A stretch of 64,000 bases of DNA from Comamonas testosteroni ATCC 11996. Lineage in GTDB: Bacteria; Pseudomonadota; Gammaproteobacteria; Burkholderiales; Burkholderiaceae_C. The position numbers and the translations under genes are program-made. The stretch is from positions 434,001 to 498,000 of the forward strand of contig NZ_AHIL01000043.1 in the NCBI RefSeq assembly GCF_000241525.1, written 5' to 3'. The notes under the pieces were generated by a model that was given only the letters and a program-made list of their open reading frames with translations, was not told where the DNA came from and searched no databases. Positions 4,628 through 36,881 of the stretch are shown here, piece by piece; the first letter of the stretch is position 1; the number at the start of each line of letters is the position of its first letter.

Positions 4628-7069
4628 TCAGAAGTCGTAGCGCATGCCCACATTCACGCTGCGCGGTGCACCCCAGGTGTAGTAGAGGCCACCCAGACTG
4701 CTGACGCCGGCAAAGTATTTCTTGTCCAGCAGATTGTTCACGTTCAGGCTCAGCGACAGATGCTTGTCGACCTGGTAGCGGGCCATCAGATCCAGCACGG
4801 CATAGGACTGCTGGGCCAGTGTGTTGTGGCTGTCGCTGGTCGAGGTCTTGCTTTGCCAGCGAGTCGCAGCCCCCAGCGTCAGACCGCGCAGCGCGCCGCC
4901 TTCGAAGCGGTAGGTGCTGCCCAGCTTAAGCTGGTACTTGGGGTATTGGCTGGAGCTGGTCAGCGAGCTGTTTTGCTGCACCAGACTGCCCTGCACCTGC
5001 CAGCCGCGCGCCAGCTCGCCCGACAGCTCCAGCTCCCAGCCGCGCCGCGTGGCGCCGCTGACGGCACGGTAGGCCATGTCGCCGCCAGGCGTGAAGCTGC
5101 CTGTCTCCTCGGCCGAGTTGTCGGTCTTCATCCAGAAGTGAGCGATGCTGGCGTTGAGCCGCTTGTCGAAGAACTCGCCCTTGGCCCCGACCTCATAGGT
5201 CTTGCCTTGCTCGGGATCGAGGGTACGCCCCTGTTCATCCTGGGCGCTTTGCGGCTTGAAGATGGTCGCGTAGCTGCCGTACAGCGAGACCTGGGGATGC
5301 ACTTCGTAGACCAGGCCGGCATAGGGCGTGGTGACGGTCTCGCGCATATCGTAGTTCCACCAGGTGGGCGTCACGTCATGCTGGCGGTACTGCGTCACGC
5401 GCATGCCGGCTATCAGCTGCAGCGGATCTGCCAGGCGGAAGCGCCCTGCCGTATAGGCATACTGCTGACGCTGGTTGAAGACATGGCGGTCATAGTTCCA
5501 GTTGCGGAAATCGGGCTGCGCCAGCGCACCACCGCCCTGGGCATAGCTCAGGCCCAGATTGGCCAGAGGTACGTTCTTGGAGCTGCCGTAGAGCAAGCCG
5601 CTGTGGTAGCGCGACACACCCACGCCGGCCAACAGCTCGTGCGTGCGTCCCAGCAAGGTGAAAGGGCCTTTGACATCGAGATTGACCGACCAGTTGCGGT
5701 TTTCCACGTCCTGCCACGGCAGATAGGCAGCGGTTGTGCTGTTCCAGAGGTAGCCCAGCGTCATGTCGTCCATCTTCACGCTCTGATGGAAGAACTTCAG
5801 GGTTGCCGTCCAATCATGGGCCAGACGCTGCTCCACGCTGCCGAACAGCTCGGTGCTTTCCTGTTCATAGCCCGACCAGGGCGCACCGTTATTGAACGAG
5901 CGCGGCATCAGCCCCACTTCGGCACCCGCTGCGGTGTAGCGCTGGATGGGTCGGGTCGTGCCAAAGCCGCGTGCCTCGCGCTGACGCAGCGTGATGCCCA
6001 GATTCAGCAGGGTATCGGGCGTGAGGTCGGCCTCCAGCGTGCCGAACAGCATCTTGCTGTTGCTCTTTTCGTTGTCGCGAAAGCTGCCCGCATCTGTCAT
6101 GGACGCAACCACGCGGCCGCGCAGCGTCCCCGCCTCGTTGAGCGAGCCGCTTATATCGGCCTGCGCACGGTAGGTATCCCAGCTGCCGGCATTGGCGCGC
6201 GCACTGGCCTGGAACTCACGCGTGGGACGCTTGCGGATCAGATTGACGGTGGCGCCATAGCCGCCTTTGCCGACAACCAGTCCCGACGAGCCTTTGAGAA
6301 CCTCGACACGGTCCATCTCCGCCATATCGTCCAACGCATACATGGTGCTGGTGACGAAGTACCAGCCATTGCTGAGCTGGGACATGCCGTCGACCTGCAG
6401 GTTCACCTCCGAGCCGCGGGCCTGGAAGTCCGTCGCGTTGTTCTGGCGATAGACGCCAATGCCCGGCGTCTGCTCCAGCACATCTGCCAGTGTCTCCAGC
6501 TTGAAGTCGTCCATCCGCTGGCGTGTCATCACGCTCACCGACTGCGGCGTCTCGCGCAGAGTCAGGCCCAGGCCCGTAGCCGTGCGGCTGGGCCCCGTCT
6601 GGGTGTAGCTGCCCGTGCCTTCCGTGGTGCCGCTGCGCTCGGCCTGGGCCGTGACGCGCACCTCCGACAGGGTGCTGCCCTCCTCACTCGAGACGGGCGC
6701 CACTGCCTGCCTTTGCAGGGTATAGCTGCCGCCAGGACGCGACACCAGCTCCAGCCCGCTGCCAGCCAGCAAGCGCTGCAGTGCCTCGCGCGGCGTAAAG
6801 CTGCCGGAAAGCACCGGGCTTTGCCGGCCTTGTGTGAGCGCAGGATCGAACGACAGTGCCATGCCGGCCGTAGCCGCCACCTCGGACAGCACCCGGCCCA
6901 GCGGTCCTGCTTCTATCCGGTAGGCCTGAGCCTGCCCGGCTGCAGGCTGCTCGGCCGCCTGTACGGCGGTCGCTGCCAGCGCCCAGCCCAGCAAGGCAAG
7001 CTGCGCGGCGCGCGCAACGGGGCTGAATACAGGATTCGATAGGGAACGGGAGGCCATGGAAGCAGGCAT
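4628..7069 (-). CDS. TonB-dependent siderophore receptor with N-terminal signalling (STN) domain
   Basis: Outer-membrane receptor of 813 residues for an iron-siderophore complex. A signal peptide ends near VQAAEQ. The STN domain at residues 45-120 (YRIEAGPLGRVLSEVAATAG, then LTQGRQSPVLSGSFTPREAL) is the segment that talks to FecR-type anti-sigma factors. A TonB box region and the plug domain follow (TPQSVSVMTRQRMDDF, DRVEVLKGSSGLVVGKGG), then a 22-strand barrel ending in Phe (NVGMRYDF). The start at 7069 has AAAGGA 9 bases upstream. It lies directly downstream of fecI/fecR-like genes, so ligand binding should induce its own transcription. The siderophore is not predictable. Confidence 0.92.
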   Translation of the reverse strand: MPASMASRSLSNPVFSPVARAAQLALLGWALAATAVQAAEQPAAGQAQAYRIEAGPLGRVLSEVAATAGMALSFDPALTQGRQSPVLSGSFTPREALQRLLAGSGLELVSRPGGSYTLQRQAVAPVSSEEGSTLSEVRVTAQAERSGTTEGTGSYTQTGPSRTATGLGLTLRETPQSVSVMTRQRMDDFKLETLADVLEQTPGIGVYRQNNATDFQARGSEVNLQVDGMSQLSNGWYFVTSTMYALDDMAEMDRVEVLKGSSGLVVGKGGYGATVNLIRKRPTREFQASARANAGSWDTYRAQADISGSLNEAGTLRGRVVASMTDAGSFRDNEKSNSKMLFGTLEADLTPDTLLNLGITLRQREARGFGTTRPIQRYTAAGAEVGLMPRSFNNGAPWSGYEQESTELFGSVEQRLAHDWTATLKFFHQSVKMDDMTLGYLWNSTTAAYLPWQDVENRNWSVNLDVKGPFTLLGRTHELLAGVGVSRYHSGLLYGSSKNVPLANLGLSYAQGGGALAQPDFRNWNYDRHVFNQRQQYAYTAGRFRLADPLQLIAGMRVTQYRQHDVTPTWWNYDMRETVTTPYAGLVYEVHPQVSLYGSYATIFKPQSAQDEQGRTLDPEQGKTYEVGAKGEFFDKRLNASIAHFWMKTDNSAEETGSFTPGGDMAYRAVSGATRRGWELELSGELARGWQVQGSLVQQNSSLTSSSQYPKYQLKLGSTYRFEGGALRGLTLGAATRWQSKTSTSDSHNTLAQQSYAVLDLMARYQVDKHLSLSLNVNNLLDKKYFAGVSSLGGLYYTWGAPRSVNVGMRYDF

Positions 7070-7129: not shown

Positions 7130-7179
7130 AGAAAGTCTCACCTTCGTGCATTTTTTTAGAAGATGCCTTGCTTGTGAAC

Positions 7180-8142
7180 TCAGCGGGCCGCCACCGTGAC
7201 CCAATAACCCTGCCAACGCCGGTGCACCGTCACGGCATAGGTTTCGACCAGCATGGCCAAGGCCCGGTCGGTATCGGCTAAGGGGTACGCACCCGAAACT
7301 TTGATGGACACCGCCTCCGGGGCACAGTGCAGCAGGCCGGGCCGGTAACGCGACAGCTGGGCACAGACTTCTGCCATGGGCATGGCATCCGCCACCAGCA
7401 TGCCGTGCACCCAGGCCAGTTGCTGCGGCCCTGCCGTCTGCAGCTCCCCTGCGCCCAGCGCAGTCAACCTAGCCCAGTTGCCCGCGGGCACCACCAGCGC
7501 GGGCCGGGAGGCTCCGAGTAATGTGACTTCGACCGCACCCTGGGTTACGGCCAGATCCACGAATTTGCCTTCGCTGCTCTGCTGTACCGAAAAGCGTGTG
7601 CCCAGTGCCCGCAGGCGCCCCACGGCCGTCTCAACCAGCAACGGCCGGTCCACGCCGCTGGGATCGGCGGCAGTTTCCAGCAGGATCGAGCCCCGGTGCA
7701 GATGTATCAGGCGCTGATGAGCATCAAACCGGATATCGACAGCCGTTCCTGTATCCAGCAGCAAACGGCTGCCATCGGCCAATGTCACGAGGCGCTGCTC
7801 GCCCGTGACAGTACGCAGATCGGCTGCCCATCCCTGCTGCTGTGCCACACGCCAGCTCATCCAGCCACCAGGCACGGCGGCCAGCAAAACAGCCAACTTG
7901 GCCACTGCGGCCCGTCGGCTGCGACGCTGCGATCGGCCCAGCGCCGGCATGGCCAGCGCCGGCGGTAACCCTCCCAGCTTGTCCATCAGCCGCTCGGCCC
8001 GCATCCAGGCGCCTTCATGGGCGGGACTGGCCTGGCGCCAGCGCTCGAAGGCGACGCTTTCGGCAGCCGTCAGGCCTTCATCGTTCAGGCGGACCAGCCA
8101 GTCCGCAGCTTCGTCCAGCAAACGTGCATCCATTGCAGTCAT
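7180..8142 (-). CDS. FecR family anti-sigma/regulatory protein
   Basis: A 320-residue inner-membrane regulator that relays the state of the TonB receptor to the ECF sigma factor. The N-terminal DUF4880-like region (ARLLDEAADWLVRLNDEGL) is cytoplasmic. A single membrane helix lies near residues 85-105 (AKLAVLLAAVPGGWMSW). The periplasmic FecR domain follows (TVTGEQRLVTLADGSRLLLD) and a C-terminal STN-like part. The start at 8142 overlaps the sigma gene stop as ATGA; an ATG at 8133 is an alternative. The gene order sigma, FecR, receptor is the classic surface-signalling set. Confidence 0.9.
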   Translation of the reverse strand: MTAMDARLLDEAADWLVRLNDEGLTAAESVAFERWRQASPAHEGAWMRAERLMDKLGGLPPALAMPALGRSQRRSRRAAVAKLAVLLAAVPGGWMSWRVAQQQGWAADLRTVTGEQRLVTLADGSRLLLDTGTAVDIRFDAHQRLIHLHRGSILLETAADPSGVDRPLLVETAVGRLRALGTRFSVQQSSEGKFVDLAVTQGAVEVTLLGASRPALVVPAGNWARLTALGAGELQTAGPQQLAWVHGMLVADAMPMAEVCAQLSRYRPGLLHCAPEAVSIKVSGAYPLADTDRALAMLVETYAVTVHRRWQGYWVTVAAR

Positions 8143-8645
8143 TCCATCAGCGCCAGACACTGCCTGAAAGCCTGGGCCATGTAACGCTTGACGCTGGTCA
8201 GCGACACGCCCAGCTGCAAGGCGATATCGTCGTACTTCATGTCCTCCAGCTGTGAAAGCAAAAAAGTGCGTCGTACCAGCGGCGGCAAGGCATCAAGCAT
8301 GGCATCTATCTCATGCAGGGCCTCCAGCACCAGGGCCCGGTGCTCAGGCGACGGCGCTTCAGGTTCGGGCAAGAGGGCCAGAGCCTCCAGATAGGCACGC
8401 TCCAGCGCCTGCCGCCGGCACCAGTTGACCAGTACCCCTTTGGCCACTGTGGTCAGATAAGCGCGCGGCGACTCTATGCGCGGCGGCTCGCGCACGCCCA
8501 GGATTCGGACAAAAGTGTCTTGCGTCAGATCTGCTGCATCAAAGGCATTGCCCACCTTTCGGCGCAACCAGCCCTGCAACCAACCGTGATGATCTGTGTA
8601 AAGCGCGGCGACTTCACGATGGGAGGCTGTTTCGACAACGGGCAT
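8139..8645 (-). CDS. ECF RNA polymerase sigma factor, FecI-like
   Basis: A 168-residue extracytoplasmic-function sigma factor. Sigma region 2 is at residues 10-75 (LYTDHHGWLQGWLRRKVGN, AADLTQDTFVRIL) and region 4 at 105-160 (LPPLVRRTFLLSQLEDMKYD, IALQLGVSLTSVKRYMAQ). It should direct RNA polymerase to the promoter of the adjacent TonB receptor when released by the FecR protein. A Fur-box-like palindrome lies 36 bases upstream of the ATG, which fits iron-repressed expression. Confidence 0.92.
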   Translation of the reverse strand: MPVVETASHREVAALYTDHHGWLQGWLRRKVGNAFDAADLTQDTFVRILGVREPPRIESPRAYLTTVAKGVLVNWCRRQALERAYLEALALLPEPEAPSPEHRALVLEALHEIDAMLDALPPLVRRTFLLSQLEDMKYDDIALQLGVSLTSVKRYMAQAFRQCLALME

Positions 8646-8680
8646 GGTGCAATGGGGATAGATCTCAAACAGACCTCAAA

Positions 8681-8695
8681 TGATATCAATTCTCA
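8681..8695 (-). promoter_or_regulatory. Fur-box-like operator upstream of the sigma factor gene
   Basis: TGATATCAATTCTCA matches the 7-1-7 Fur consensus TGATAATNATTATCA at 11 of 14 informative positions. It sits 36 bases before the sigma gene start, where a repressor would overlap the promoter. Confidence 0.65.
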
Positions 8696-9038
8696 TTTCA
8701 GGTTTCTCAATGCCTTCACTATTTCCGCATATGTTTCAGCTCCATCTTCTGCCGGCCGCATCGCCTTGTGCCCGCGACAAGCTTGGTGGAAGGGCCGGCC
8801 CTGCACAATCACTCACACGCAATACTTCGATGCCTGGAACTCCGCTACTGACCATTCACGCACGCGGCACACCCTCTCGGACGCCTGCTCGCATCAACCT
8901 CCCGGCACCTGCTGGATGATTGCAAGACTATTGCGCTGTTGAGCTCTGCGATGCTTTACTCGGCAGGTGATTGATGCAAATGTCTGGAACCGAGCCGTTT
9001 CATATCCAGGTTGGTATTCAAGGACCTCAAGAATCAAG
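8696..9038. other. Divergent intergenic stretch, 343 bases
   Basis: Lies between the minus-strand sigma gene and the plus-strand diguanylate cyclase. I see no gene, hairpin terminator or repeat. An in-frame GTG at 8967 could extend the cyclase by 24 residues, but those residues do not look like a signal or domain. Confidence 0.4.
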
Positions 9039-10868
9039 ATGACAAGCTTTCGCTCTCACAAGCTTTTACATCGCATCGTGCTCGGCAACCTGCTGGTAGC
9101 GGCCTTGCTGTGTTTTGCCACATGGCTGGGCGTGCATGCCAATTACCGTGCGGACATGGACCTGGGAGTGGCCGTCACCAGGCATCAGGCGCGCAGCCTG
9201 AGCTTGGAGCTGGCTGCCGAGGTGCGACTGGTGGACAACGCTCTGTCATCGATTGCCAGTCGTTACCGCGCGCGCAGCTTTGACGGCCTTGCCGCTGCCA
9301 ACTTTGCCCTGTACGAAATGCTCCATGAGCAGCGTGCCCTGATTCCTTTTGTCACCGCCCTGCGCATCACGGACAGTGCTGGCGAGGTACTCATCACTCC
9401 CAGCGAAATTGATGTGCCGTTTTCAGTTGCGGAACGCGCCTATTTCGCCCAAGCCCGCGAAGCAGACCGAATGGTGGTGTCCGAGCCTTTGATCAGCCAT
9501 TCCTTCGGAAAATGGTCTATCGTGCTGGCGAGGCGTCTTCAGGCCGAGGGCGGTCAGTTCCAGGGCATCGTCTATGCCATCGTCGCGGCCGAGCATTTTC
9601 ACCAGCTATTCCAGCGCCAGTCGTTCGGCACGAGCAGCGCCATGGCATTGCGCACCGATCAGGCACTGCTGGTAGCGCGCTATCCGGCTGCAACCCAGGA
9701 CGCCGACGCGGGTATCGGCAAGGCCGCCGTCTCGTCTGAATATCACCAGGCCATCAGCCGCAACAGCGAGGAAGGCTGGTACATCACACCGACCCTGATC
9801 GATGGCGTGGAGCGCATCACGGCCTACCATCGGTTGCCTGGATATCCTCTGACGGTGTTTACCGGGCTGGGTACGGAAGCCTATATGGCCATGTGGCGAG
9901 CCTCAGCCTGGCGTGCATGGGGTCTTACCGGCTTGTGCATTGCCCTGATCGCTCTGGGCTCAGTGGCACTTTACCGGCTGCAGCAGCGTGAACGCCGTAT
10001 CCGCAAAGAGCAGGAGCTGGTCATCAACAATGACCTGATCGGCATGGCTCGCCTGCGCGAGCGCAAGATCGTCTGGACCAACCCCGCCATGCGCCGTCTG
10101 CTCAAGCAGCCAGCAGCTGCACTGCAGGGCGCATCCACGCGCATGCTTTACCCGGACGAAGCCTCCTACAGGCGTATCGGCGAAAAAGCCTATGCCTCCT
10201 TGCTGGCTCGGGGCAAATTTCACGCGCAGTTCCAGGTACAGAATGCCGAGGGCAAGCTTTTGTGGGTGGATGCATCCGGCACACTGCTGAATGCCGAAGA
10301 GTCGCTATGGATTCTGGTGGACATCGACGCCCTCAAGCAAGGTGAACAAGCCGCCAATCACCTTGCCAACCACGACGCTCTGACGGGTCTGGCGAACCGC
10401 CGAGCACTTGAGGAAACGCTGAACCAGGAGCTCGCCGACGGCCAGATGCTTGCCGTGTGCTTCATGGACCTGGATGGTTTCAAACAGGTCAACGACACCC
10501 AGGGTCACGATGCGGGCGACGAAGTTTTACGTGTGGTGGCTGCCCGACTGACGGCCCAGGCTCGTGCCGGCGACTGCGTTGCCCGCCTGGGCGGCGATGA
10601 GTTCGTGGTGCTGCTATCCGGCTTGCGCACTTCCGGTGAGGCCATGTCTGTCATGAAGCGCTGCATGGAAGCCGTGCGCCAGCCCATTGCGCTGGATGGT
10701 GGAGTGATGGTGCAAGTCGGCAGCAGCATCGGTATCTCCATCAGCACCGCAGGTAGTTCCTCGGCCAACCTGATGCAGAGTGCGGACGAGGCCATGTACT
10801 CAGCCAAACATGCAGGCAAGGGGCGCATTGTTCAACATTCGGACCTCTCGCAAGACTCAAAGGCGTGA
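9039..10868 (+). CDS. Membrane diguanylate cyclase: periplasmic sensor, PAS-like and GGDEF domains
   Basis: Makes cyclic di-GMP from two GTP at the inner membrane. The 609-residue protein has a first helix near residues 12-34 (IVLGNLLVAALLCFATWLGV), a periplasmic dCACHE-like sensor of about 250 residues, a second helix near 295-315 (LTGLCIALIALGSVALYRL), a PAS-like region with WTNPAMRRLL, and a C-terminal GGDEF domain. The active-site motif RLGGDEFVVLL is intact, and RAGD sits five residues before it, so the inhibitory I-site is present. The ATG at 9039 is preferred over an upstream GTG. It stands alone; the ligand is unknown. Confidence 0.9.
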   Translation: MTSFRSHKLLHRIVLGNLLVAALLCFATWLGVHANYRADMDLGVAVTRHQARSLSLELAAEVRLVDNALSSIASRYRARSFDGLAAANFALYEMLHEQRALIPFVTALRITDSAGEVLITPSEIDVPFSVAERAYFAQAREADRMVVSEPLISHSFGKWSIVLARRLQAEGGQFQGIVYAIVAAEHFHQLFQRQSFGTSSAMALRTDQALLVARYPAATQDADAGIGKAAVSSEYHQAISRNSEEGWYITPTLIDGVERITAYHRLPGYPLTVFTGLGTEAYMAMWRASAWRAWGLTGLCIALIALGSVALYRLQQRERRIRKEQELVINNDLIGMARLRERKIVWTNPAMRRLLKQPAAALQGASTRMLYPDEASYRRIGEKAYASLLARGKFHAQFQVQNAEGKLLWVDASGTLLNAEESLWILVDIDALKQGEQAANHLANHDALTGLANRRALEETLNQELADGQMLAVCFMDLDGFKQVNDTQGHDAGDEVLRVVAARLTAQARAGDCVARLGGDEFVVLLSGLRTSGEAMSVMKRCMEAVRQPIALDGGVMVQVGSSIGISISTAGSSSANLMQSADEAMYSAKHAGKGRIVQHSDLSQDSKA

Positions 10869-22377: not shown

Positions 22378-22699
22378 GATGTCCTCAGAATCGGGGGCTT
22401 TCTCAGCCTCTATTTTGTGCACAAATGTCAGCTCAGTTTTGACTGCGGACACTCAAAAATAGCCGCCGCCGACATTTCAGGCGGCTGCAGCCTGTTTGGA
22501 CATCGGATATCGATCACGGGCAGTGCCGCCACAGTGCCTGAACCTGCACCAGCGCCTTGCTGAACGCGATGCCTACCTTGTGCCGTGCCTCGTTGCCCCA
22601 AAGGAATCGCCCTGATCTCCCAGACGATGTCTGGATGCGCTGCTATATAATTTTTCGTTGAAACAAGTCTCGGCACGGCCGTGCCGCAGGCTTTTTCTC

Positions 22700-22925
22700 C
22701 ATGCGACAGGTGCCCGGTGCTTCATCGGGTTAAACGGGAACAAGGTTCAAAGCCTTGGCTGCCCCCGCAACGGTAAGCAGATCAAACCACTTCATGGCTT
22801 TTGCGCTTGCAGGAGCCTGTCACTGGTGTTTTACGTGGCCTCTTCGACGAGGTGCGCGGCAACGCCGGGAAGGCGAAGTAACATGCCTCGCGCAATCTGC
22901 CAGCCCGGATACCGGCCTGTTGAGC
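22700..22925 (+). promoter_or_regulatory. Cobalamin riboswitch 1 (upstream of btuCD)
   Basis: Landmarks in order: GGTGCCCGGTGCTTC, TTAAACGGGAA (22730-22740), GCTGCCCCCGCAACGGTAA (the B12-box region near 22760-22777), GGGAAGGCGAAG, and GCCAGCCCGGATACCGGCC near 22899-22917. These are the conserved elements of the AdoCbl aptamer. B12 binding should reduce expression of the import genes that follow. Confidence 0.93.
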
Positions 22926-23061
22926 GCTGACCGTCCGGACCCAGTTCCGGCAGTCGGCATGTGCAACGAACGTCTGCGGGGAGCAGCGTGACGGCAACAG
23001 GCTGCGAGGCCCGCCCTCCGCCCGATCTCGTCACCAGCATGCAGACCGTCTGCCCTGGCTA

Positions 23062-25030: not shown

Positions 25031-25093
25031 ATCCCTCTGCGTTTCGCCCGGGGACTGATAAACTCTCGCGGCGCCTTGATGGCGCTTCGTTTC

Positions 25094-25325
25094 GGAAGGT
25101 GCTCGCTTGAAGCGAGTGAAACGGGAACAAGGTCTGATCGCAAGCTCAGGAAGCCTTGGCTGCCCCCGCAACGGTAAACAGGTCAACACACTCATGCGAG
25201 CGCATCAACGCTTGCAGCCACTGGACATGATCCGGCCCCTCGCATCGCGACGGTCTGCATCTTTCGGGAAGGCGAGTCGTGAATTCAGCAATGAATTGCC
25301 TGTGAGCCCGGAGACCGGCCTGCCG
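25094..25325 (+). promoter_or_regulatory. Cobalamin riboswitch 2 (upstream of the TonB receptor)
   Basis: GGTGCTCGC, AAACGGGAACAAGG (25118-25131), GCTGCCCCCGCAACGGTAA near 25159-25177, CGGGAAGGCGAG and GTGAGCCCGGAGACCGGCC near 25302-25320. A GC hairpin (CCGCCC, CTCG loop, GGGCGG at 25337-25352) follows and may be part of the expression platform. Confidence 0.94.
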
Positions 25326-25472
25326 ATGACTCAACTCCGCCCCTCGGGGCGGTCTTTACGAAAACTGTCTGCGGGGTGCGGATAGCGGCCAGAAAGTGGA
25401 TTGCGTCATGCCTGAAAAAGGCGGACCTGTCTGCGGCACAGCTATCCCTTCAGGCAGTTTCGGCCTCGTGAT

Positions 25473-27614: not shown

Positions 27615-28684
27615 TGCTGCCCAGGCCTGCTGCCATGCAAGCTCTTGGCTTGAATCGACCCCGCGCCTCGGCGCTGCTGGTGGCATCGCTGCTGCTGGCC
27701 GGTTGCGGCAAAGCACCCGAGCCGCAGGCGGTTGCGGTGCCGATGCGCCAGCATCAGCCAGCGCTGGAGTTGCCGGTGTGCGGGCAGACCGTGCGCTACG
27801 ACAAGGTTCCTCAACGCGCCGTCACCCATGACGTCAACATCACCGAGAGCTTTCTCTATCTCGGTCTGGGCCGGCGCCTGGTCGGCTACTCGGGCATCCC
27901 TTCCAGCAAGGAGATCAGCCCCCAGCTCAAGCCCTGGCTGCAGCGTCTGCCCGATCTTTCATCCCAGGGCATGAACCTGGAGGTATTGCTGGGCGCCGAA
28001 GCCGACTTTGTCTTTGGCGGCTGGAGCTATGGCTTTCGCCAAGGTGGCGTGACCCCGGAGCGCCTGGCCAGCCACGGGATCGCCTCCTATGTGCTGTCCG
28101 AATCCTGCATCCGCGTGCAAAAGCGCGAGCGCATCGCACTGGACGATGCATTGCTGGACATGGAGAACATCAGCCGCATCTTTGGCGTCCTCCCGCAGAC
28201 CCTGCCACGCATAGACAAACTGCGGGCCTCCCAGGCCCAGTTGCGCCAGCAGATGCAGGGCAATCGCACGCTGCCGCGCGTCTTTGTATACGACAGCGGC
28301 CAGGAGATTCCCGTCACCGTCGGTCACTTCGGCATGCCGCAAGCCATGCTGGACGAAGCCGGTGCCAGCAACATCTTTGCAGACCTGAGCCAGAACTGGC
28401 AGCGCGGCAACTGGGAAGACGTGATCGAGCGCGACCCCGAGTGGATCGTGATCATTGACTACGGCCAGCCCGATGCTCAGGGCAAGATCGACTTCCTACT
28501 GCAAAAAAAGGAACTTGAGGCGGTTTCCGCCATTCGCAATCGCCGGTTCTTCGTGATGAGCTATGCCGAAGCCACACCCGGCCCGCGAAATATCGAAGCC
28601 GCACAGCGCCTGGCAGCCGCCTTGCACCCCGAGCGCAAGATCGCCGTCCAACGCGTGGAGTTTTCTGCAGGAGAGCTCCCGTGA
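27614..28684 (+). CDS. BtuF-like substrate-binding lipoprotein
   Basis: A 356-residue periplasmic binding protein with a lipobox (LLLAGC, Cys near residue 28), so it should be membrane anchored. The body has the helical-backbone binding-protein layout (RAVTHDVNITESFLYLGLGR, then LEVLLGAEADFVFGG and NWEDVIERDPEWIVIIDYG). It would deliver cobalamin to BtuCD encoded just upstream. The ATG at 27614 overlaps the receptor stop; ATG at 27635 is an alternative. Ends as GTGA with the next gene. Confidence 0.85.
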   Translation: MLPRPAAMQALGLNRPRASALLVASLLLAGCGKAPEPQAVAVPMRQHQPALELPVCGQTVRYDKVPQRAVTHDVNITESFLYLGLGRRLVGYSGIPSSKEISPQLKPWLQRLPDLSSQGMNLEVLLGAEADFVFGGWSYGFRQGGVTPERLASHGIASYVLSESCIRVQKRERIALDDALLDMENISRIFGVLPQTLPRIDKLRASQAQLRQQMQGNRTLPRVFVYDSGQEIPVTVGHFGMPQAMLDEAGASNIFADLSQNWQRGNWEDVIERDPEWIVIIDYGQPDAQGKIDFLLQKKELEAVSAIRNRRFFVMSYAEATPGPRNIEAAQRLAAALHPERKIAVQRVEFSAGELP

Positions 28685-29502
28685 ACAAGCATCTCCCCAC
28701 CTCCCAACCGGCCGATCTCAAGCAGGCCGCAGCGCCTTCGCTGGCCATCATCCTGCTCAGCCGGGGCGGCGCCTATACCGCAGGCCTGACGGAGCTCAGT
28801 GATCTGGCCGGGCGGCTGGAGGCCGCCATGAGGGCCTCAGGCCAGCCTGTGCAGCAGGTGACCACGGCCTATGTGGACCGCGCCCAGCCCACGCTGGGCG
28901 AGGCGCTGGACCTGTGTGCCAAAGCCCGCAGCATTCTGATCCTACCCGTGATGATGCCTGACGAAGCCTCGCTGCGCCGCTGGCTGCACAAGCTCATCAT
29001 GCGCTGGCGTGCAGCACGTGATTCCTCACAGCCCCCTCCGCGTCTGGTATTAGGTCAACCGCTGCTGCAGCTACCCGGACTGACCGAGTTGCTGGCTCGG
29101 TCCGTGGAAGATGCACTGCGCCAGCCCGATGTGCCCGAGGTGCTGGGCGACGATCCATGGGAGCATGACCCCAAGGGCTGGTCGCTGGTGCCAGAGCACC
29201 GCCAGCATGTGCTGTGGTGCGTGGGCCCGCGCTGCGCGGCCAAGGGAGCGCTTCAGCTATGGCCCACACTGACGCGAACGATACGTGAAACCCCGGGGCT
29301 GAAAAACCGGCTGCAGCCGCTGCAGACCGGCTGCCAGTACCCCTGCAACCATGGCCCGTTGATGATCGTCTACCCCGACGGCGTCTGGTACGGCCCCATG
29401 GATGCCGACAATCTGGCGTCCACGCTCACAGGCCATGTGCTTGATGCGCGCGTCAACCCACAATGCCATGTCCACGGACCGGCTGTCCTCGAACGCTCCT
29501 AA
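28681..29502 (+). CDS. CbiX-like domain fused to a 2Fe-2S ferredoxin domain
   Basis: The 273-residue protein has an N-terminal chelatase-like domain (AIILLSRGGAYTAG to residue 120) and a C-terminal thioredoxin-like ferredoxin domain with four Cys (CVGPRC near residue 181 and GCQYPC near 220). In active CbiX enzymes the first loop reads GHGS and a second His follows a beta-strand; here the loop is SRGG and the second site (LPVMMPDEASLRRW) also lacks His. It may therefore be a cobalt carrier or redox partner rather than a chelatase. GTG start overlaps the BtuF-like stop. Confidence 0.75.
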   Translation: MNKHLPTSQPADLKQAAAPSLAIILLSRGGAYTAGLTELSDLAGRLEAAMRASGQPVQQVTTAYVDRAQPTLGEALDLCAKARSILILPVMMPDEASLRRWLHKLIMRWRAARDSSQPPPRLVLGQPLLQLPGLTELLARSVEDALRQPDVPEVLGDDPWEHDPKGWSLVPEHRQHVLWCVGPRCAAKGALQLWPTLTRTIRETPGLKNRLQPLQTGCQYPCNHGPLMIVYPDGVWYGPMDADNLASTLTGHVLDARVNPQCHVHGPAVLERS

Positions 29503-30653: not shown

Positions 30654-33600
30654 ATGCACCTGCTCAGCTCCCGCCCCGGCGGCTTTGTCGAAGACGACAG
30701 CATCATCACCCGTCTGGACCAGACGCCTGCCGACATGGTGGTGCTCAGCTCTGCCGACACCACGCTGTCGCTGCTGGCCGATGCCTACCGGATGTGGCAG
30801 CAAGCCGAAACCGATGCCCCCACGCTGCGGCTCGCCAATCTGCTGCATCTGCGCCAGAGCGCCTCGCTCGATCTGTATATCGACGAGGTGCTGCAGCATG
30901 CCAGGCTGGTCATCGTCGACCATCTGGGAGCCGAGTCCACCTGGCCCTACGGCATCGAGCAGCTGCAAAAGCTGGCGCGCCGCAAGGGCCAGAAGCTGGC
31001 CATGTTCTCTGGCGACAACCAGGAGGATCCCGAACTGCTGGCCAAGGGCACGCTTGAGCCCGAGCAAAGCCGTGCGCTGTGGCAATATCTGCGCGCCGGC
31101 GGCCTTGGCAATGCCCGCGAGTTCCTGCGCATGGCGGCAGCCTGGGGCCTGAACCAGGGCTGCGAGGGCGCGCCCGTGCGGGTGCTGCCCCCCGTGGCCG
31201 TTCATGTGCCACAAAGCTGGCTGGCAGACGATGCCGGGCATCTTCCGGGCCTGGACGATCTGCAGGCGCGCTGGCAGCCCGGAGCCCCCGTGGCGATGCT
31301 GGTGTTCTACCGCTCGCATCTGCTGGCGGCCAATACCGAGGCCTTTGATGCCATGGCCGACGCCCTGCTCGCACGCGGCCTGAACCCGCTGCCGCTGGCC
31401 CTGGAGTCGCTCAAGGACGGGCTGTGCCTGCAGACGCTGCGCTCCCTGTGCATTGCGCACCAGGTGCAGATCATTCTCAACACCACGGCGTTTGCTGCCC
31501 TCGGAGAACATGCGCGCACAGGCGAAGCGGCCGATGCGCTGGCCGGCGACATTCCGGTGCTGCAAGTGATTGCCAGCGGAAGCAACCGCGAAGACTGGCT
31601 GGCTGACAGCCAGGGCCTGCGCCCGCGCGACATTGCCATGCAGGTGGTGCTGCCCGAGATGGACGGCCGCATCATGACGCGCGCCATGAGCTTCAAGGGC
31701 CTGGCCCATCGCTGCGAGCTGACGCAGACCGATGTGATCAGCTACCAGGCCGAGCCCGACCGCGTCGCCTGGATTGCCGAGCTGGCCTGGCGTTGGTGTC
31801 AGCTGCGCAGCAAGCCAGCGGCGCAGAAGAAAGCCGCGCTGATACTGGCCAACTACCCGGGCAGCGAGGCACGCATGGGCAGCGGCGTGGGCCTCGATAC
31901 GCCGGAATCCGTGATCGCGCTGTTGGATCAGCTGGCAAGTGACGGCTGGCAACTGGGCGATGCTGCTGCGCGGCCCGACTCCGGTCTGGCTCTGATGGGC
32001 CTGCTGCAGCAAGGCATTGCCAATGACCCCAAAAAATGGCCACTGCGCCCTGCAAGCCAGGGCTATTCGCTTCAGGCCTATCAACAGCGCCTGGCAAAGC
32101 TGCCCGGCGATATGGCCCAGGCCATAGCCGAGCGCTGGGGTGCGCCCGAACAGGACCCCATGCTGCGCGATGGCTGGTTCATGATTGCGGGCCTGCAGCT
32201 GGGTCATGTCTTTGTCGGCATACAGCCCGCACGTTCTCTCGATGGACGCAATGACTACGCGAGTTACCACGACGCCGAGCTGGTGCCGCCCCATCACTAT
32301 CTGGCGTTCTACTTCTGGCTGCGCGATGTGTTCGGCGTGGACGCCATGGTCCATGTGGGCAAGCACGGCAATCTGGAATGGCTGCCGGGCAAGAGCCTGG
32401 CGCTTTCGCAGCAATGCTGGCCCGATGCCATCCTCGGCCCGCTGCCGCATGTCTATCCCTTCATCGTCAACGACCCGGGCGAAGGGGCTCAGGCCAAGCG
32501 CCGCAGCCAGGCCGTCATCATCGACCATCTGATGCCGCCGCTCATGCGCGCCGAAAACCACGGCCCCATGCAGGAGCTGGAACGTCTGGTGGACGAATAC
32601 TACGAAGCCCTGCTGGTCGATCTGCGCCGCTCCGGCATGCTGCGCAAGCAGATTCTGGACTGCGCCAGGCAGCAGGATCTGCTGCGCGAACTTGGCCTCG
32701 AAACGGCGAGCGCGCAGCCCGATGCCGACGAGCAGCTGCTGGAACGCATCGATGCCTATCTGTGCGAACTCAAGGAAACCCAGATCCGCGATGGCCTGCA
32801 TATCTTCGGCAGCTCGCCCCAGGGCCAGCTGCGCGAATCCACCCTGCTGTCTCTGGCGCGCTATCCGGGCGGTGGTGGCAACGAGCAGGGCCTGCTCAAC
32901 GCACTGGTCGCCGACCTGCTGCCGGCCATGGACTGGAACCCGCTGGACATGGATGCCGCCGCGCCCTGGAACGGCCTGCGCCCGGCCGCGCTGCAGCAGC
33001 AGGATGCCGGTGCCTGGCGCCATGGCGGCGACACGCGCGAGCGGCTCGAGCTGCTGGCCCTGCAGGTCATTGCCCGGCCCGAGCTGGCCCGCGACTGGCC
33101 GCACACACTACAAGTGCTGACGCGCATAGAGCAGCAGATTGCACCTTCACTGGACGCCTGCGGCCCCCAGGAGCTGCTGCAGTTCTCGCGCGCACTGCAA
33201 GGATGCTTTGTTCCGCCGGGCCCCAGCGGCTCGCCCTCGCGCGGGCGCTGTGACACCTTGCCCACGGGTCGCAATTTCTACACTGTGGACATCCGTGCCA
33301 TCCCCACCCAGACCGCCTGGGCGCTGGGGCAGCAGTCCGCGCAGCGCCTGCTGGAGCGTTATCTGCAGGAGCATGGCGAATATCCACAGGCCATCGGTCT
33401 TTCCGTCTGGGGAACAGCCACCATGCGTACCGGCGGTGACGATATCGCCCAGGCCTTCGCCCTGATCGGGGTTCGCCCCAAATGGGCGGCCGGCAGCCAG
33501 CGCGTGACCGACTTTGAAGTCATTCCGGCCGTCGGGCTGCGTCGCCCGCGCGTTGACGTGACGCTGCGCATCAGCGGCTTTTTCCGCGATGCCTTTCCCA

Positions 33601-34478
33601 ACGTGGTGCAGATGTTCGATGCTGCGGTGCGTGCCGTGGCCGAGCTCGATGAGGACGCCGAGGACAACCCTATCCGCGCCCGCATGCTGCGTGACACGCA
33701 AACCGCAATGGACCATGGCCTGAGCGCCGACGCGGCCCGCGAACAGGCCCTGTGGCGCGTCTTCGGAGCGCCCACAGGCAGCTATGGTGCCAGCATGCAC
33801 GAGATGCTGCGTAGCGGCCAGTGGACCGACGCAGGTGACTTTGCACGCCACTACCTGCACTGGGGGGCCTATGCCTACGGCCAGCAGGCCGATGGCGTGC
33901 CGGCCCGCGCCGCGCTGGAGCGGCGTCTGCAGGCGTTGGACGTGGTGCTGCAGAATCAGGACAGCCGCGAGCATGACCTGCTGGATTCCAGCGAGTACTA
34001 CCAGCATCAGGGCGGCATGGTGGCGGCCGTCCGGCACCTGGGCGGCAGCGACCCTGCCGTCTATCATGGCGACCACGGCAATCCTCAGTCTGCCAGGATT
34101 CGATCCCTGGCCGAGGAGATCGGCCGCGTGGTGCGCGCCCGCGTCACCAATCCCAAATGGATTGCGGGCGCCATGCGCCACGGCTACAAGGGCGGCTTCG
34201 AGATGGCGGCCACGGTGGACTATCTGTTCGGCTTCGATGCCACCACCGCGCTGGTCTCGGACCAGCATTACGCCCTGGTCACCCAGGCCTATGTGGAAGA
34301 TGAGAGCGTGCGACAGTTTCTGCGCCAGCACAATCCACAGGCGCTGGGCGATATCGTCTCGCGCCTGCTGGAAGCCATAGACCGCGGCATGTGGGAGCAG
34401 CCCGGCGAGCATCGCCAGAGCCTGCTGGCCCAGATGCTGGAGCACGAAGAATTCATGGAAGGACAGGTTTCCCAATGA
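30654..34478 (+). CDS. cobN: Cobaltochelatase large subunit CobN
   Basis: The 1274-residue subunit binds hydrogenobyrinate a,c-diamide and inserts cobalt with help of AAA+ subunits. Length matches the family. Recognised blocks include the start MHLLSSRPGGFVEDDSIITR, HVGKHGNLEWLPGKSLALS, GPLPHVYPFIVNDPGEG, GLSVWGTATMRTGGDDIAQA and GGFEMAATVDYLFGFDATT. The stop overlaps the next start as ATGA. Both small-subunit activities appear to come from the following gene. Confidence 0.96.
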   Translation: MHLLSSRPGGFVEDDSIITRLDQTPADMVVLSSADTTLSLLADAYRMWQQAETDAPTLRLANLLHLRQSASLDLYIDEVLQHARLVIVDHLGAESTWPYGIEQLQKLARRKGQKLAMFSGDNQEDPELLAKGTLEPEQSRALWQYLRAGGLGNAREFLRMAAAWGLNQGCEGAPVRVLPPVAVHVPQSWLADDAGHLPGLDDLQARWQPGAPVAMLVFYRSHLLAANTEAFDAMADALLARGLNPLPLALESLKDGLCLQTLRSLCIAHQVQIILNTTAFAALGEHARTGEAADALAGDIPVLQVIASGSNREDWLADSQGLRPRDIAMQVVLPEMDGRIMTRAMSFKGLAHRCELTQTDVISYQAEPDRVAWIAELAWRWCQLRSKPAAQKKAALILANYPGSEARMGSGVGLDTPESVIALLDQLASDGWQLGDAAARPDSGLALMGLLQQGIANDPKKWPLRPASQGYSLQAYQQRLAKLPGDMAQAIAERWGAPEQDPMLRDGWFMIAGLQLGHVFVGIQPARSLDGRNDYASYHDAELVPPHHYLAFYFWLRDVFGVDAMVHVGKHGNLEWLPGKSLALSQQCWPDAILGPLPHVYPFIVNDPGEGAQAKRRSQAVIIDHLMPPLMRAENHGPMQELERLVDEYYEALLVDLRRSGMLRKQILDCARQQDLLRELGLETASAQPDADEQLLERIDAYLCELKETQIRDGLHIFGSSPQGQLRESTLLSLARYPGGGGNEQGLLNALVADLLPAMDWNPLDMDAAAPWNGLRPAALQQQDAGAWRHGGDTRERLELLALQVIARPELARDWPHTLQVLTRIEQQIAPSLDACGPQELLQFSRALQGCFVPPGPSGSPSRGRCDTLPTGRNFYTVDIRAIPTQTAWALGQQSAQRLLERYLQEHGEYPQAIGLSVWGTATMRTGGDDIAQAFALIGVRPKWAAGSQRVTDFEVIPAVGLRRPRVDVTLRISGFFRDAFPNVVQMFDAAVRAVAELDEDAEDNPIRARMLRDTQTAMDHGLSADAAREQALWRVFGAPTGSYGASMHEMLRSGQWTDAGDFARHYLHWGAYAYGQQADGVPARAALERRLQALDVVLQNQDSREHDLLDSSEYYQHQGGMVAAVRHLGGSDPAVYHGDHGNPQSARIRSLAEEIGRVVRARVTNPKWIAGAMRHGYKGGFEMAATVDYLFGFDATTALVSDQHYALVTQAYVEDESVRQFLRQHNPQALGDIVSRLLEAIDRGMWEQPGEHRQSLLAQMLEHEEFMEGQVSQ

Positions 34479-35677
34479 GCCCGAACCACGATCCGGCACC
34501 CGTATTCCCTATCTCTGCCATACAGGGACAGCCCGCCCTGGTACAGGCCCTGCTGCTGGCCGCAATCGAGCCACAGCTGGGAGGCGTGCTGATCCGGGGC
34601 CCGCGCGGCACGGCAAAGTCCACGGCAGCACGTGCGCTGGCGGATCTGCTGGCACCTGCACCTTTCGTCACCCTGCCGCTAGGTGCCTCCATCGAGCATG
34701 TGACCGGCAGCCTGGACCTGTCCAAAGCTCTGGCGGGCCATGAATTGGCTTTTGCGCCGGGCCTGATCGCCAAGGCGCACGAAGGGGTTCTCTATGTCGA
34801 TGAGATCAATCTGCTGCCCGATGCCATCGTCGATGTGCTGCTTGATGTGGCAGCCTCCGGCATCAATCGCATAGAGCGCGACGGGATCTCGCACAGCCAT
34901 GCTGCACGCTTTGTACTGGTCGGCACCATGAACCCCGAGGAAGGCATGCTGCGCCCTCAGTTGCTGGACCGCCTGGGCCTTTGTGTGCAATTGGACAATG
35001 CCCAGGACCCGCAGCTGCGCAGCAGCATCGTCAAGGCCAGGCTGCGCTTTGACCTGGACCCCCAGGGCTTTGTGCAATCCCATGCGGCCCGCCAGCAGGA
35101 GATCCGCCAAAGACTGGCGCAGGCCCGCAGCCGTTGCCGCAATGCCTCGGAACTGGCCTGGAGCGATGCCGTCCACGAGGCCGTGGCCCTGCAGTGCATT
35201 GCCGCCCAGGTGGACGGACTGCGTGCCGACCTGGTCATGCTGCGCGCTGCACGCGCCCTGGCAGCCTGGCAAGGCAGTCACAGCATCACGCCAGCCCATG
35301 TGTCCGAAGTCGCACCACTGGTACTGCAGCATCGCGCTGCCCAGCCAGACCCCGGCAGCGCCAGTCAACCCCGACAGGCACCGGCCAGCACACCTCCAGC
35401 CGCGCCCGCAGCGCAATCCGGCAAGGACAGCAAAGACCTCACAGAGCCTGATATCCAGGCATCAGCATCCCCTTCAACGGCCTCCCGCGAGCCCGGCGCT
35501 ACCAGCTCCTTGCCTCCAGACGCCGGCCCGGGCCTCGAACAGCCGCCTGCCGGCTGGGGTCAGGCTCAAGCCGTGAGCAGCGTCGTCTTCGAACCGCAAC
35601 AGGCCGACGCCATGGCACAGGCAGCCCTGGAGGCCCTGGCCGCAAAAAAAGCCCGGGCCTCCGGTCTGCTGCGCTGA
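34475..35677 (+). CDS. chlD: Cobaltochelatase AAA+ subunit, 0-frame (ChlI-like) product of a chlD-type gene
   Basis: The 400-residue product has an AAA+ core: Walker A GPRGTAKST near residue 45, Walker B VLYVDEINLL near residue 110, sensor region VGTMNPEEG and the lid. It then continues into a 100-residue Pro/Ala/Ser-rich linker (APASTPPAAPAAQSG) as in ChlD proteins rather than stopping where ChlI would. The 0-frame ends nine codons after an A7 run at 35644-35650, and the -1 frame carries the missing VWA domain. No cobS or cobT is present in the window. Confidence 0.88.
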   Translation: MSPNHDPAPVFPISAIQGQPALVQALLLAAIEPQLGGVLIRGPRGTAKSTAARALADLLAPAPFVTLPLGASIEHVTGSLDLSKALAGHELAFAPGLIAKAHEGVLYVDEINLLPDAIVDVLLDVAASGINRIERDGISHSHAARFVLVGTMNPEEGMLRPQLLDRLGLCVQLDNAQDPQLRSSIVKARLRFDLDPQGFVQSHAARQQEIRQRLAQARSRCRNASELAWSDAVHEAVALQCIAAQVDGLRADLVMLRAARALAAWQGSHSITPAHVSEVAPLVLQHRAAQPDPGSASQPRQAPASTPPAAPAAQSGKDSKDLTEPDIQASASPSTASREPGATSSLPPDAGPGLEQPPAGWGQAQAVSSVVFEPQQADAMAQAALEALAAKKARASGLLR

Positions 35678-35692
35678 GCGCCGGCCGGGGGC
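35629..35692 (+). promoter_or_regulatory. Programmed -1 frameshift signal in the chlD-type gene
   Basis: Slippery heptamer A AAA AAA at 35644-35650, read in the 0 frame as GCA AAA AAA. An internal SD-like GGAGG at 35629-35633 lies ten bases before it. A stem GCCTCCGG (35657-35664) with CCGGGGGC (35685-35692) begins six bases after it. After a -1 shift, reading resumes at 35650 in the frame of the VWA domain, which is open to 36342. Confidence 0.8.
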
Positions 35693-36342
35693 AAGTCGGC
35701 TCTGCCGACCAAGGTCTGACTCTGGCCAGCCATGCCGTATCCAGCGTCCACAAGATGCCAGGGGCATCGATTGACTGGACTGCCACCCTGCACCAGCGCC
35801 AGGGGCTGCCGCTGGCACCCGCCCATCTGCGCTGGCACCAGCCCGAAGGAGAGGTGCGCAGGCAACACCTGTTCCTGCTGGACTGCTCGGCCTCCATGGT
35901 GGAGAGCGGCGCGTTCGCCCGGGCCAAGGGCCTGCTGCTGCAGTGGTTGCGCCGGGCTTATCAGCAGCGCGAATCCGTGGCCCTGCTGTGCTTCGGCGCA
36001 GGCCGGCTCCATTGGCTGCTGGAGCCCACGCGGGCGCCACGCTGGAATGCCGACCTGATCGAGCCGCTGCGCGGCGGTGGCGGCACGCCGCTGGCCCAGG
36101 CCCTGGAGTCAGGCTGGCAGATGGCGGCCAGATACTCCCGGCAACCGTCCTGCCTGTGGCTGATCAGCGACTTCCGCAGCCCCGATGTGCTGCAGCTGGA
36201 ACGCGGCCCCATACCTGCCCTGGCGCAGATTCTGGTGGACTGTGAAACTGCTGCAGGCCAGAGCAGGCGTCTGTTTGGCGGCGCCGAGCGGCTGGCAAAG
36301 GCCTGGCCGGATACTCTGCGACTGCCGCTGAAATTCAACTAA
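35650..36342 (+). CDS. chlD: VWA domain of the chlD-type cobaltochelatase subunit, -1 frame part
   Basis: About 230 residues with a von Willebrand A domain: MIDAS motif DCSASM, RGGGGTPLAQALESG and LWLISDFRSPD. The frame has no ATG, GTG or TTG until ATG 35755, which has no ribosome-binding site and would cut conserved-looking residues; this supports entry by frameshift from 34475 (about 622 residues in all, a normal ChlD length). A CTG at 35674 overlapping the upstream stop is a weaker alternative start. Confidence 0.85.
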   Translation, partial: SPGLRSAALSAGRGQVGSADQGLTLASHAVSSVHKMPGASIDWTATLHQRQGLPLAPAHLRWHQPEGEVRRQHLFLLDCSASMVESGAFARAKGLLLQWLRRAYQQRESVALLCFGAGRLHWLLEPTRAPRWNADLIEPLRGGGGTPLAQALESGWQMAARYSRQPSCLWLISDFRSPDVLQLERGPIPALAQILVDCETAAGQSRRLFGGAERLAKAWPDTLRLPLKFN

Positions 36343-36394: not shown

Positions 36395-36519
36395 GTCACC
36401 TGACAGGGTATAACGCCCCCCTGCCCGCCCTATCGATACCCTGTCACCGCACAGGCGGCAGGAAAGCGGCTGCCAGGCCGATGAGTTCGGCCGTGTGGAC
36501 CAGGTTATCGCGTAAGATC

Positions 36520-36745
36520 GCGCCACCACAGGTGCCTCATGGCGTGCTTTTGCACGCGGAGGTGAAACGAGAAGCAGGTCAATGGAGTCTCCATCAATCC
36601 TGCACTGCACCCGCAACGGTAATCAGAGATATGGCGATGCACGCTCTGGCCCACGGCCATGGCCGCCACTGCGAAAGCGGGAAGGCGCATCGACATGCCA
36701 CCCTCAGGTGGGCTCTGTAAGTCCGGAGACCGGCCTGATGTGTAC
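36520..36745 (+). promoter_or_regulatory. Cobalamin riboswitch 3 (upstream of cobGHIJ)
   Basis: ACAGGTGCCTCATGGCGTGC at the start, GGTGAAACGAGAAGCAGG near 36562-36579, CTGCACCCGCAACGGTAATC near 36605-36625, GCGGGAAGGCGC near 36678 and GTAAGTCCGGAGACCGGCC near 36717-36735. B12 binding should shut down ring synthesis genes. Confidence 0.93.
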
Positions 36746-36881
36746 AAGGCGCAGCGGGATTGCATGTGGCTTGTGATATGCCAGCGCCTGCGTGCGGCTC
36801 ATCACCTCTTCATTTCCCTCTGCACATTTTGTTTGTCTGGCCCGGGTATCGGCCAAACCGACCGTGGATGACCTATGTTGC

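Follow-up and report, generated by a model that had tools for sequence, protein, structure and literature searches.

The window analyzed here is a 64,000-nt stretch of Comamonas testosteroni ATCC 11996 (GCF_000241525.1; NZ_AHIL01000043.1, positions 434,001 to 498,000 of the forward strand), to which all coordinates below refer. Its plus strand carries cobN (30654 to 34478), encoding the large cobaltochelatase subunit (TIGR02257; 1506.4 bits, above the cut-off), and, directly 3' of it, a chlD-type gene (34475 to 36342) in which the VWA frame lies at −1 relative to a ChlI-like AAA+ frame and overlaps it, an arrangement claimed in an earlier note on this DNA and borne out by the ORF coordinates. 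The 0-frame ORF (plus strand, 34475 to 35677) begins with an ATG at 34475 that overlaps the cobN stop codon (ATGA), ends with a TGA, and encodes a ChlI-like AAA+ protein with a linker (400 amino acids); the closest solved structure to the AAA+ part is 1g8p (254.5 bits). The −1 frame is open after a stop at 35449 up to the stop at 36340 to 36342, which gives a frame overlap of 226 bases. Past the shift (plus strand, 35650 to 36342), it encodes a VWA part of 230 amino acids, for which the closest solved structure is 2x31_A (E value, 1.2e-8). Joined by the shift, the two parts make a ChlD-like product of 622 amino acids. These computed lengths, together with the matches to ChlI/ChlD-type models, agree with the earlier description of a ChlI-like 0-frame product and a ChlD-like shifted product of about 622 residues.

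The fused reading aligned with TIGR02442, the putative cobaltochelatase model (hypothetical equivalog), in a single stretch (61 to 569) that spans the junction, with a score under the curated cut-off (451.5 versus 779.45 bits). The CobS and CobT models TIGR01650 and TIGR01651 did not match the chlD gene in a search of its own genome at an E value of 0.001. The surroundings of chlD are those of B12 synthesis (cobN, cobW, cobG, cobH, cobI, and cobJ, as well as riboswitches), and a cobalamin riboswitch (RF00174; 65.9 bits; plus strand, 36513 to 36752) was identified between chlD and cobG.

Three elements lie at the junction on the plus strand: (i) a slippery heptamer, A AAA AAA (A7; 35644 to 35650), in the correct phase (GCA AAA AAA G); (ii) a Shine-Dalgarno-like GGAGG (35629 to 35633) ten bases 5' of A7, to which we assign a putative role in the shift; and (iii) a hairpin (35657 to 35692; arms 35657 to 35666 and 35683 to 35692) that starts six bases 3' of A7. 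The heptamer and the GGAGG are placed and phased as the earlier note had proposed, and so is the start of the stem, but the stem length, given there as 8 bp, is 10 bp with G-U pairs counted. The fold of this hairpin alone is moderate (z score of −1.73; 11 of 200 shuffles were equal or better). The 0-frame stop TGA (35675 to 35677) is located between the hairpin arms, at +24 from A7. Runs of at least seven As occur four times on the plus strand of the window, and by simple arithmetic the 226-base overlap is expected to contain ~0.014 such runs by chance, or ~0.005 if the right phase is required. The GGAGG sits in conserved codons, and GAG accounts for 233 of the 341 Glu codons in the upstream ORFs of the clade to which this gene belongs. 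It had also been stated that the VWA frame lacks an early start codon and a ribosome-binding site; indeed, its first ATG, GTG, or TTG is at 35755, and no Shine-Dalgarno-like word was seen by eye in the 18 bases preceding this ATG. A second hairpin just 3' in the window was rejected as a candidate because, by eye, C. testosteroni JL40 does not share it.

The relatives were collected in two sets. The best 80 of 501 relatives were kept for the first set, which comprised 81 loci. Further searches used the best 30 places of 40 matching genomes among 53 and the best 30 of 118 among 399, from which 56 new loci remained after 4 repeated ones were removed; judging by scores, many of the weaker places are other VWA proteins. 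From the 81-locus set, we left out loci without a VWA match (L018, L071, L073, L076, L077, and L079), in-frame loci (L013, L070, and L080), and L081, which has no A run and a VWA match more than 1 kb downstream. From the 56-locus set, L139 (no AAA+ match), L132 (in-frame and from the same organism group as L013), and L143 (no A run) were left out. The earlier note had named, as an observation that would count against frameshifting, related genomes that lack A7 and carry a VWA gene of their own with an ATG start; such genomes were not found among the relatives sampled: a shifted junction with a run of at least six As was present at 124 of the 137 loci (repeats of one gene counted), and L143 speaks partly against this pattern. 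After removal of L058 (Ns) and merging of 22 identical junctions, 101 distinct junctions were obtained, the gene under study among them. L027, one of five A AAA AAG rows, was kept in this set and was the only row omitted from the tree, for its length. The junctions are related, and therefore the counts given here are not independent.

The heptamer of the 101 junctions is A AAA AAA in 95, A AAA AAG in 5, and A AAA AAC in 1, and A_AAA_AAR (ending in AAA or AAG) is in phase in 100 of them. In all 101, A is the last base of the codon that precedes the two Lys codons, while third-position A amounts to 15.0% in the upstream ORFs. The helix starting at +6, an offset spotted by eye before being tested, has a mean length of 8.8 bp, versus 4.4 bp after shuffling, and reaches at least 6 bp in 92 junctions; its arms occur as 46 distinct pairs with two-sided changes. 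Helices of at least 6 bp were found at offsets +4 to +8 in 97 of the 101 junctions, compared with 41 of 101 at the control offsets +24 to +28. Such covariation supports the view that the hairpin of these chlD genes is under selection and keeps a constant spacing to the slip site. The position of the 0-frame stop is likewise fixed (+3 in 82 junctions and +24 in 17), with all three stop codons used in each set. The proposed alignment of relatives thus found the heptamer, its phase, the six-base spacer, and the covarying stem to be kept. As to the suggestion that the signal of this copy is unusually complete, the slip site and stem turned out to be the rule in the family, whereas the GGAGG and the late stop are special to one clade.

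Counting variable columns by codon position gave a weak result in the clade of the window (8, 9, and 12 at positions 1, 2, and 3, respectively) and clearer results in Variovorax (7, 3, and 9), Pseudorhodoferax (3, 2, and 8), Delftia (4, 2, and 9), and Paraburkholderia (12, 11, and 28). An argument based on missing start codons failed: merely 6 of 100 loci have no ATG, GTG, or TTG before the match to D-x-S/T-x-S/T, a pattern too loose for the purpose, which in the window picked residue 41 past the slip, before the likely DCSAS. Some loci depart from the common arrangement. At five distant loci, A9 is accompanied by little stem, and in L027 the run is A6 and the frame is +1. L143 has no A7 and instead shows C CCA AAA, followed by a stop at +3 and, from +6, by a helix of 17 bp; an ATGA overlap also occurs in its VWA frame. 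The relative G377 has an in-frame fusion, a weak second AAA+ match, and no CobS match in our search, which is at odds with a strict requirement for two products.

Programmed −1 frameshifting is the best reading of this junction because of the comparison with relatives. The shift could also arise in transcription, with RNA polymerase adding an A at A7 and the altered mRNA being read by ribosomes that do not shift. A kept homopolymer is consistent with such slippage, as are the distant loci with A9 and little stem and the published increase of efficiency with A-run length (PMC3711429), which slippage would also give. However, a covarying stem fixed six bases past the slip site is expected for ribosomes; five loci of the −1 class (L029, L035, L044, L045, and L056) have A6 with the last A replaced by G or C, so that the tandem-slip heptamer is kept or nearly kept while the run is shorter; and L143 retains C CCA AAA, in which the run is down to four As. 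We consider transcriptional slippage improbable. Still less probable is a VWA gene of its own, translated from ATG 35755 or through reinitiation past the 0-frame stop. By eye, this ATG does precede the clearly conserved VWA part, in 94 of 100 relatives a start codon occurs somewhere ahead of the match to the loose metal-site motif, and the ATGA overlap of L143 would suit such a gene, but there is no Shine-Dalgarno-like word at 35755, which is 77 bases from the 0-frame stop, a ribosome-binding-site-like word precedes the first start in just 12 of the 94, and the heptamer and stem would be left unexplained. Homopolymers are prone to sequencing errors, and L027, with its A6 and +1 frame, may be one; nevertheless, the same −1 junction recurs in separate assemblies from many genera, and we reject sequencing error and gene decay because the relatives share the junction, leaving them hardly any probability.

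A different question is whether the products of a real frameshift serve CobN. A search of the whole genome with TIGR01650 and TIGR01651 identified a sole CobS/CobT-like pair on another contig, outside the window. The earlier note had pointed to the lack of cobS, cobT, and a separate chlI in the window, an argument that carries less weight in view of this pair. No second ChlI was found in the whole-genome search apart from a weak 36.8-bit match on another contig. The CobS/CobT-like pair could act as motor and adaptor for CobN, with the shift products being redundant or otherwise employed; the pair scores 500.7 bits (CobS-like) and 300.3 bits (CobT-like), and CobS-like proteins near 500 bits occur in 6 of the 10 relatives searched. 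This supply is nonetheless unlikely, since both proteins are under their cut-offs (558.55 and 759.05, respectively), the pair adjoins xsc and taurine transport genes rather than B12 genes, G187 and G056 have a late-stop chlD and merely weak matches (26.0 and 21.0 bits), and chlD directly follows cobN.

We favor, with a probability of roughly 0.9, a chlD gene whose two subunits arise by programmed −1 frameshifting and serve, together with CobN, as an aerobic cobaltochelatase; the gene very probably makes both through a one-base backward slip of ribosomes at A7. Most ribosomes would decode GCA AAA AAA without shifting and terminate at 35675, producing the 400-amino-acid ChlI-like motor subunit. 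Some would be held up by the hairpin, six bases past A7, perhaps aided by pairing of the GGAGG with 16S rRNA, and both Lys tRNAs would then re-pair one base back, so that translation would enter the VWA frame and yield the 622-amino-acid ChlD-like subunit. Both products presumably join CobN. For annotation, this means merging two ORFs into one recoded gene.

The 17 junctions with the 0-frame stop at +24, between the stem arms, instead of at +3 form one clade with a single origin on the tree, and 16 of them have GGAGG at the same upstream place. Its members include C. testosteroni, C. terrae, C. odontotermitis, Acidovorax sp. MR-S7, and others (Comamonadaceae). We did not find this late-stop/GGAGG signal in print within the literature searched. 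Tentatively, the clade might have rebuilt the order of slip site, stop, and stem. In this scenario, the +3 stop would have been lost and a stop fixed 21 bases later between the hairpin arms, and the Shine-Dalgarno-like element inside the gene would have assumed some of the stimulatory function, so that the proportion of ChlI to ChlD would be altered or would become linked to termination and the queueing of ribosomes. The family offers a natural series for how A-run length, stop position, Shine-Dalgarno-like element, and stem set the ratio of two subunits, from A9 with little stem through A7, stop, and stem to GGAGG, A7, stem, and late stop, and including the C CCA AAA of L143 with its 17-bp stem.

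In Escherichia coli dnaX, one gene gives two products by means of a Shine-Dalgarno-like element about ten bases before the slip site, the heptamer A AAA AA(A/G), and, some five or six bases past the latter, a stem. Judged from its sequence, the chlD junction appears to have all three parts at the usual dnaX spacings, but the gene is another one, its heptamer ends in A, and its GGAGG is a putative stimulator. BchI/BchD and ChlI/ChlD of Mg-chelatase also combine an AAA+ motor with an AAA+-linker-VWA adaptor; these are encoded by two genes, whereas here one recoded gene adjoins cobN and not chlH. CobS and CobT of CobNST would have an equal role with CobN, but the protein in the window matches ChlI/ChlD-type models, and in this genome TIGR01650 and TIGR01651 match the other locus only. 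Frameshifted chlD (fs-chlD) genes are reportedly also treated by Antonov (2020, Mol Biol Evol). Frameshifting in the chlD family has been published, as the earlier note correctly held, and reporter assays are among the evidence; Delftia and Burkholderia belong to the published set (PMC3711429; also PMC9227772 and PMC5009743). Three published genes of this family with 11, 9, and 7 As gave 63, 40, and 10%, respectively, in E. coli reporters (PMC3711429). The gene described here belongs to this published kind, with which it shares the −1 AAA+/VWA overlap, the A_AAA_AAR slip site, the downstream structure, and the occurrence in B12 producers (PMC3711429, PMC9227772). The additions are those of its clade, in which the stop at +24 and the upstream GGAGG stand in contrast to the +3 stop of most relatives.

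The chlD-type cobaltochelatase gene starts with an ATG at 34475, which overlaps the stop codon of cobN (30654 to 34478, + strand; TIGR02257, 1506.4 bits) as ATGA. From this ATG, a 0-frame ORF of 400 amino acids, in which a domain search identified an AAA+ domain and lid, extends on the + strand to a TGA at 35675 to 35677. The second frame is -1 relative to the first and contains a VWA domain, which confirms the overlapping arrangement proposed in the earlier note. The -1-shifted reading yields a product of 622 residues, the predicted size, and the putative cobaltochelatase model TIGR02442 matched it in a single stretch crossing the junction (residues 61 to 569; 451.5 bits, under the cut-off of 779.45). 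By far the best explanation of this organization, judged from sequence, is programmed -1 ribosomal frameshifting.

The two frames occupy the interval from cobN to a cobalamin riboswitch (36513 to 36752) located ahead of cobG. Other cobalamin riboswitches precede the genes for a BtuC-like permease (22691 to 22934) and a TonB-dependent receptor (25080 to 25337), and adjacent genes match cobW, cobG (under its cut-off), cobH, cobI, and cobJ. An ORF of 273 amino acids (28681 to 29502), flanked by cobW and the gene for a periplasmic binding protein, had no NCBIfam match at E 1e-20.

At the junction, the slippery heptamer A7 (35644 to 35650, +; in-frame reading GCA AAA AAA G) and an upstream GGAGG (35629 to 35633, +) are both found where the earlier note placed them. 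The stem begins six bases past A7, as claimed, but its helix is 10 bp long (35657 to 35666 paired with 35683 to 35692, +) rather than 8 bp, and the 0-frame stop codon sits between its arms. On its own, the junction folds only moderately well (z, -1.73; an equal or better fold in 11 of 200 shuffles), and the case therefore rests on the comparison with relatives.

A contig scan of relatives, from which the best 80 of 501 were retained, identified Comamonas testosteroni JL40 as the closest of these (90%). Genus (53 genomes, 40 matching) and family (399 genomes, 118 matching) searches, with loci taken for the best 30 places in each, together provided 56 new loci, some of which are genes already in the set. 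A run of at least six As was present at the shifted junction in 124 of 137 loci (repeats counted), giving 101 distinct junctions, including that of the window; these are related by descent, and the counts are not independent trials.

Among the heptamers, 95 were A AAA AAA, 5 were A AAA AAG, and 1 was A AAA AAC. Immediately ahead of the two lysine codons, the codon ended in A in all 101, while A occupies 15.0% of third positions in the upstream ORFs. The helix starting at +6 (six bases after the heptamer) averaged 8.8 bp, compared with 4.4 bp in dinucleotide shuffles; it reached at least 6 bp in 92/101 junctions and was individually significant (p ≤0.05) in 78/101. Thus, the conservation of A7 and stem expected among relatives was borne out. 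Across offsets -20 to +59, the mean helix was ~4 at most positions, and the elevated values at +7 to +10 are inner parts of the +6 helix. By a looser control, helices of at least 6 bp occurred at +24 to +28 in 41/101 junctions versus 97/101 at +4 to +8. Both arms vary, with 46 distinct arm pairs among the junctions with at least 6 bp; pair 4, for example, is CG in 16, TA in 11, GC in 10, AT in 6, and TG in 3. In five distant relatives, of which four are gammaproteobacterial MAGs and the fifth is filed under Aquificaceae, the slip run is A9 and the helix at +6 measures 1, 5, 3, 3, and 6 bp (L062, L068, L072, L075, and L078, respectively), as if the longer slip run stood in place of the stem; excluding them, 91/96 junctions had at least 6 bp.

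The 0-frame stop is at +3 in 82 junctions (TGA, 72; TAG, 6; TAA, 4), at +24 in 17 (TGA, 11; TAG, 3; TAA, 3), and elsewhere in L027 and L038. The 17 late-stop junctions, including that of the window, formed one group (SH-aLRT, 100) on a 102-row protein tree built by a quick method and containing some long branches. All 17 had a helix of at least 8 bp at +6, and 16 had GGAGG at the same position, where the mean anti-Shine-Dalgarno duplex energy was -8.9 kcal/mol, compared with a mean of -2.6 kcal/mol when each of the 82 +3-stop junctions is taken at its best position. Conservation of GGAGG thus held in this clade but not outside it, where GGAG, GAGG, or AGGA was within range in 22/82 junctions. 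GGAGG may owe its retention to the protein sequence instead of to selection on the RNA: by eye, it falls within codons of the conserved LEALAAKK/MEALAAKK stretch, and GAG accounts for 233 of 341 glutamate codons in the upstream ORFs of the clade.

Some relatives depart from this pattern. Three loci are in frame: L070, L080, and L013 of Acidovorax sp. SUPP3334 (genome G377). In G377, the second match to the AAA+ part is weak (32.8 bits) and a genome-wide profile search yielded no CobS match, so this fusion does not accord with two products being strictly required. L143 (genome G345) has C CCA AAA instead of A7 near locus base 1366 (strand as read); its stop is at +3, and its helix begins at +6 and spans 17 bp. 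Its VWA frame has an ATGA overlap, making re-initiation possible there. L027 (Variovorax sp. E3, near 7047) carries A6 with a +1 frame relation, in contrast to the A7 of its relatives, and is perhaps a sequencing error or a damaged copy. In L081, the VWA match is >1 kb distant.

Another source of small subunit was also considered. Over the window's own genome, TIGR02442 matched this chlD (in three pieces) and, weakly, one further site (36.8 bits), where the ORF looks, by eye, like a MoxR ATPase. The CobS and CobT models TIGR01650 and TIGR01651 located a CobS/CobT-like pair on another contig (G000:C60:77342-79938; L145, about 7157 to 10005), under both cut-offs (500.7 of 558.55 and 300.3 of 759.05). 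It adjoins genes for sulfoacetaldehyde acetyltransferase (xsc), a taurine-binding protein, taurine transport, and an IclR-like regulator; in four other genomes, picked for having the pair, xsc adjoins it in all four and taurine transport genes turned up in two of the four stretches inspected, one stretch stopping at a contig end. CobS matches in ten genomes were near 500 bits in six, no more than weak in G345, G187, and G056, and absent in G377. G187 and G056 carry late-stop chlD, and the pair is therefore not a constant companion of this gene, although it could contribute in Comamonas.

Frameshifting in chlD is already known, as the earlier note acknowledged: it occurs in B12 producers (PMC9227772), and three frameshift cassettes gave 63, 40, and 10% in E. 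coli with 11, 9, and 7 As (PMC3711429). One study that names Delftia (PMC5009743) describes strong purifying selection on A_AAA_AAR and a strong potential for structure that lacks strong sequence conservation. Excerpts of PMC8211752 and PMC7242693 added nothing decisive on this question, and no printed description of the late-stop clade's signal was found in a literature collection of limited coverage. New here are the stem covariation, the combination of late stop and GGAGG in one clade, and two caveats, one from the CobS/CobT-like pair and one from G377. The suggested likeness of the 0-frame product to ChlI was upheld, with matches to BchI-ChlI (301.2 bits), BchD-ChlD (209.3 bits), and TIGR02442 (373.9 bits), all under their cut-offs. 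Compared with Mg-chelatase, the 0-frame part resembles the 38-kDa subunit (best solved relative, 1g8p; 254.5 bits), and the VWA part resembles the 60-kDa subunit (best solved relative, 2x31_A; E 1.2e-8).
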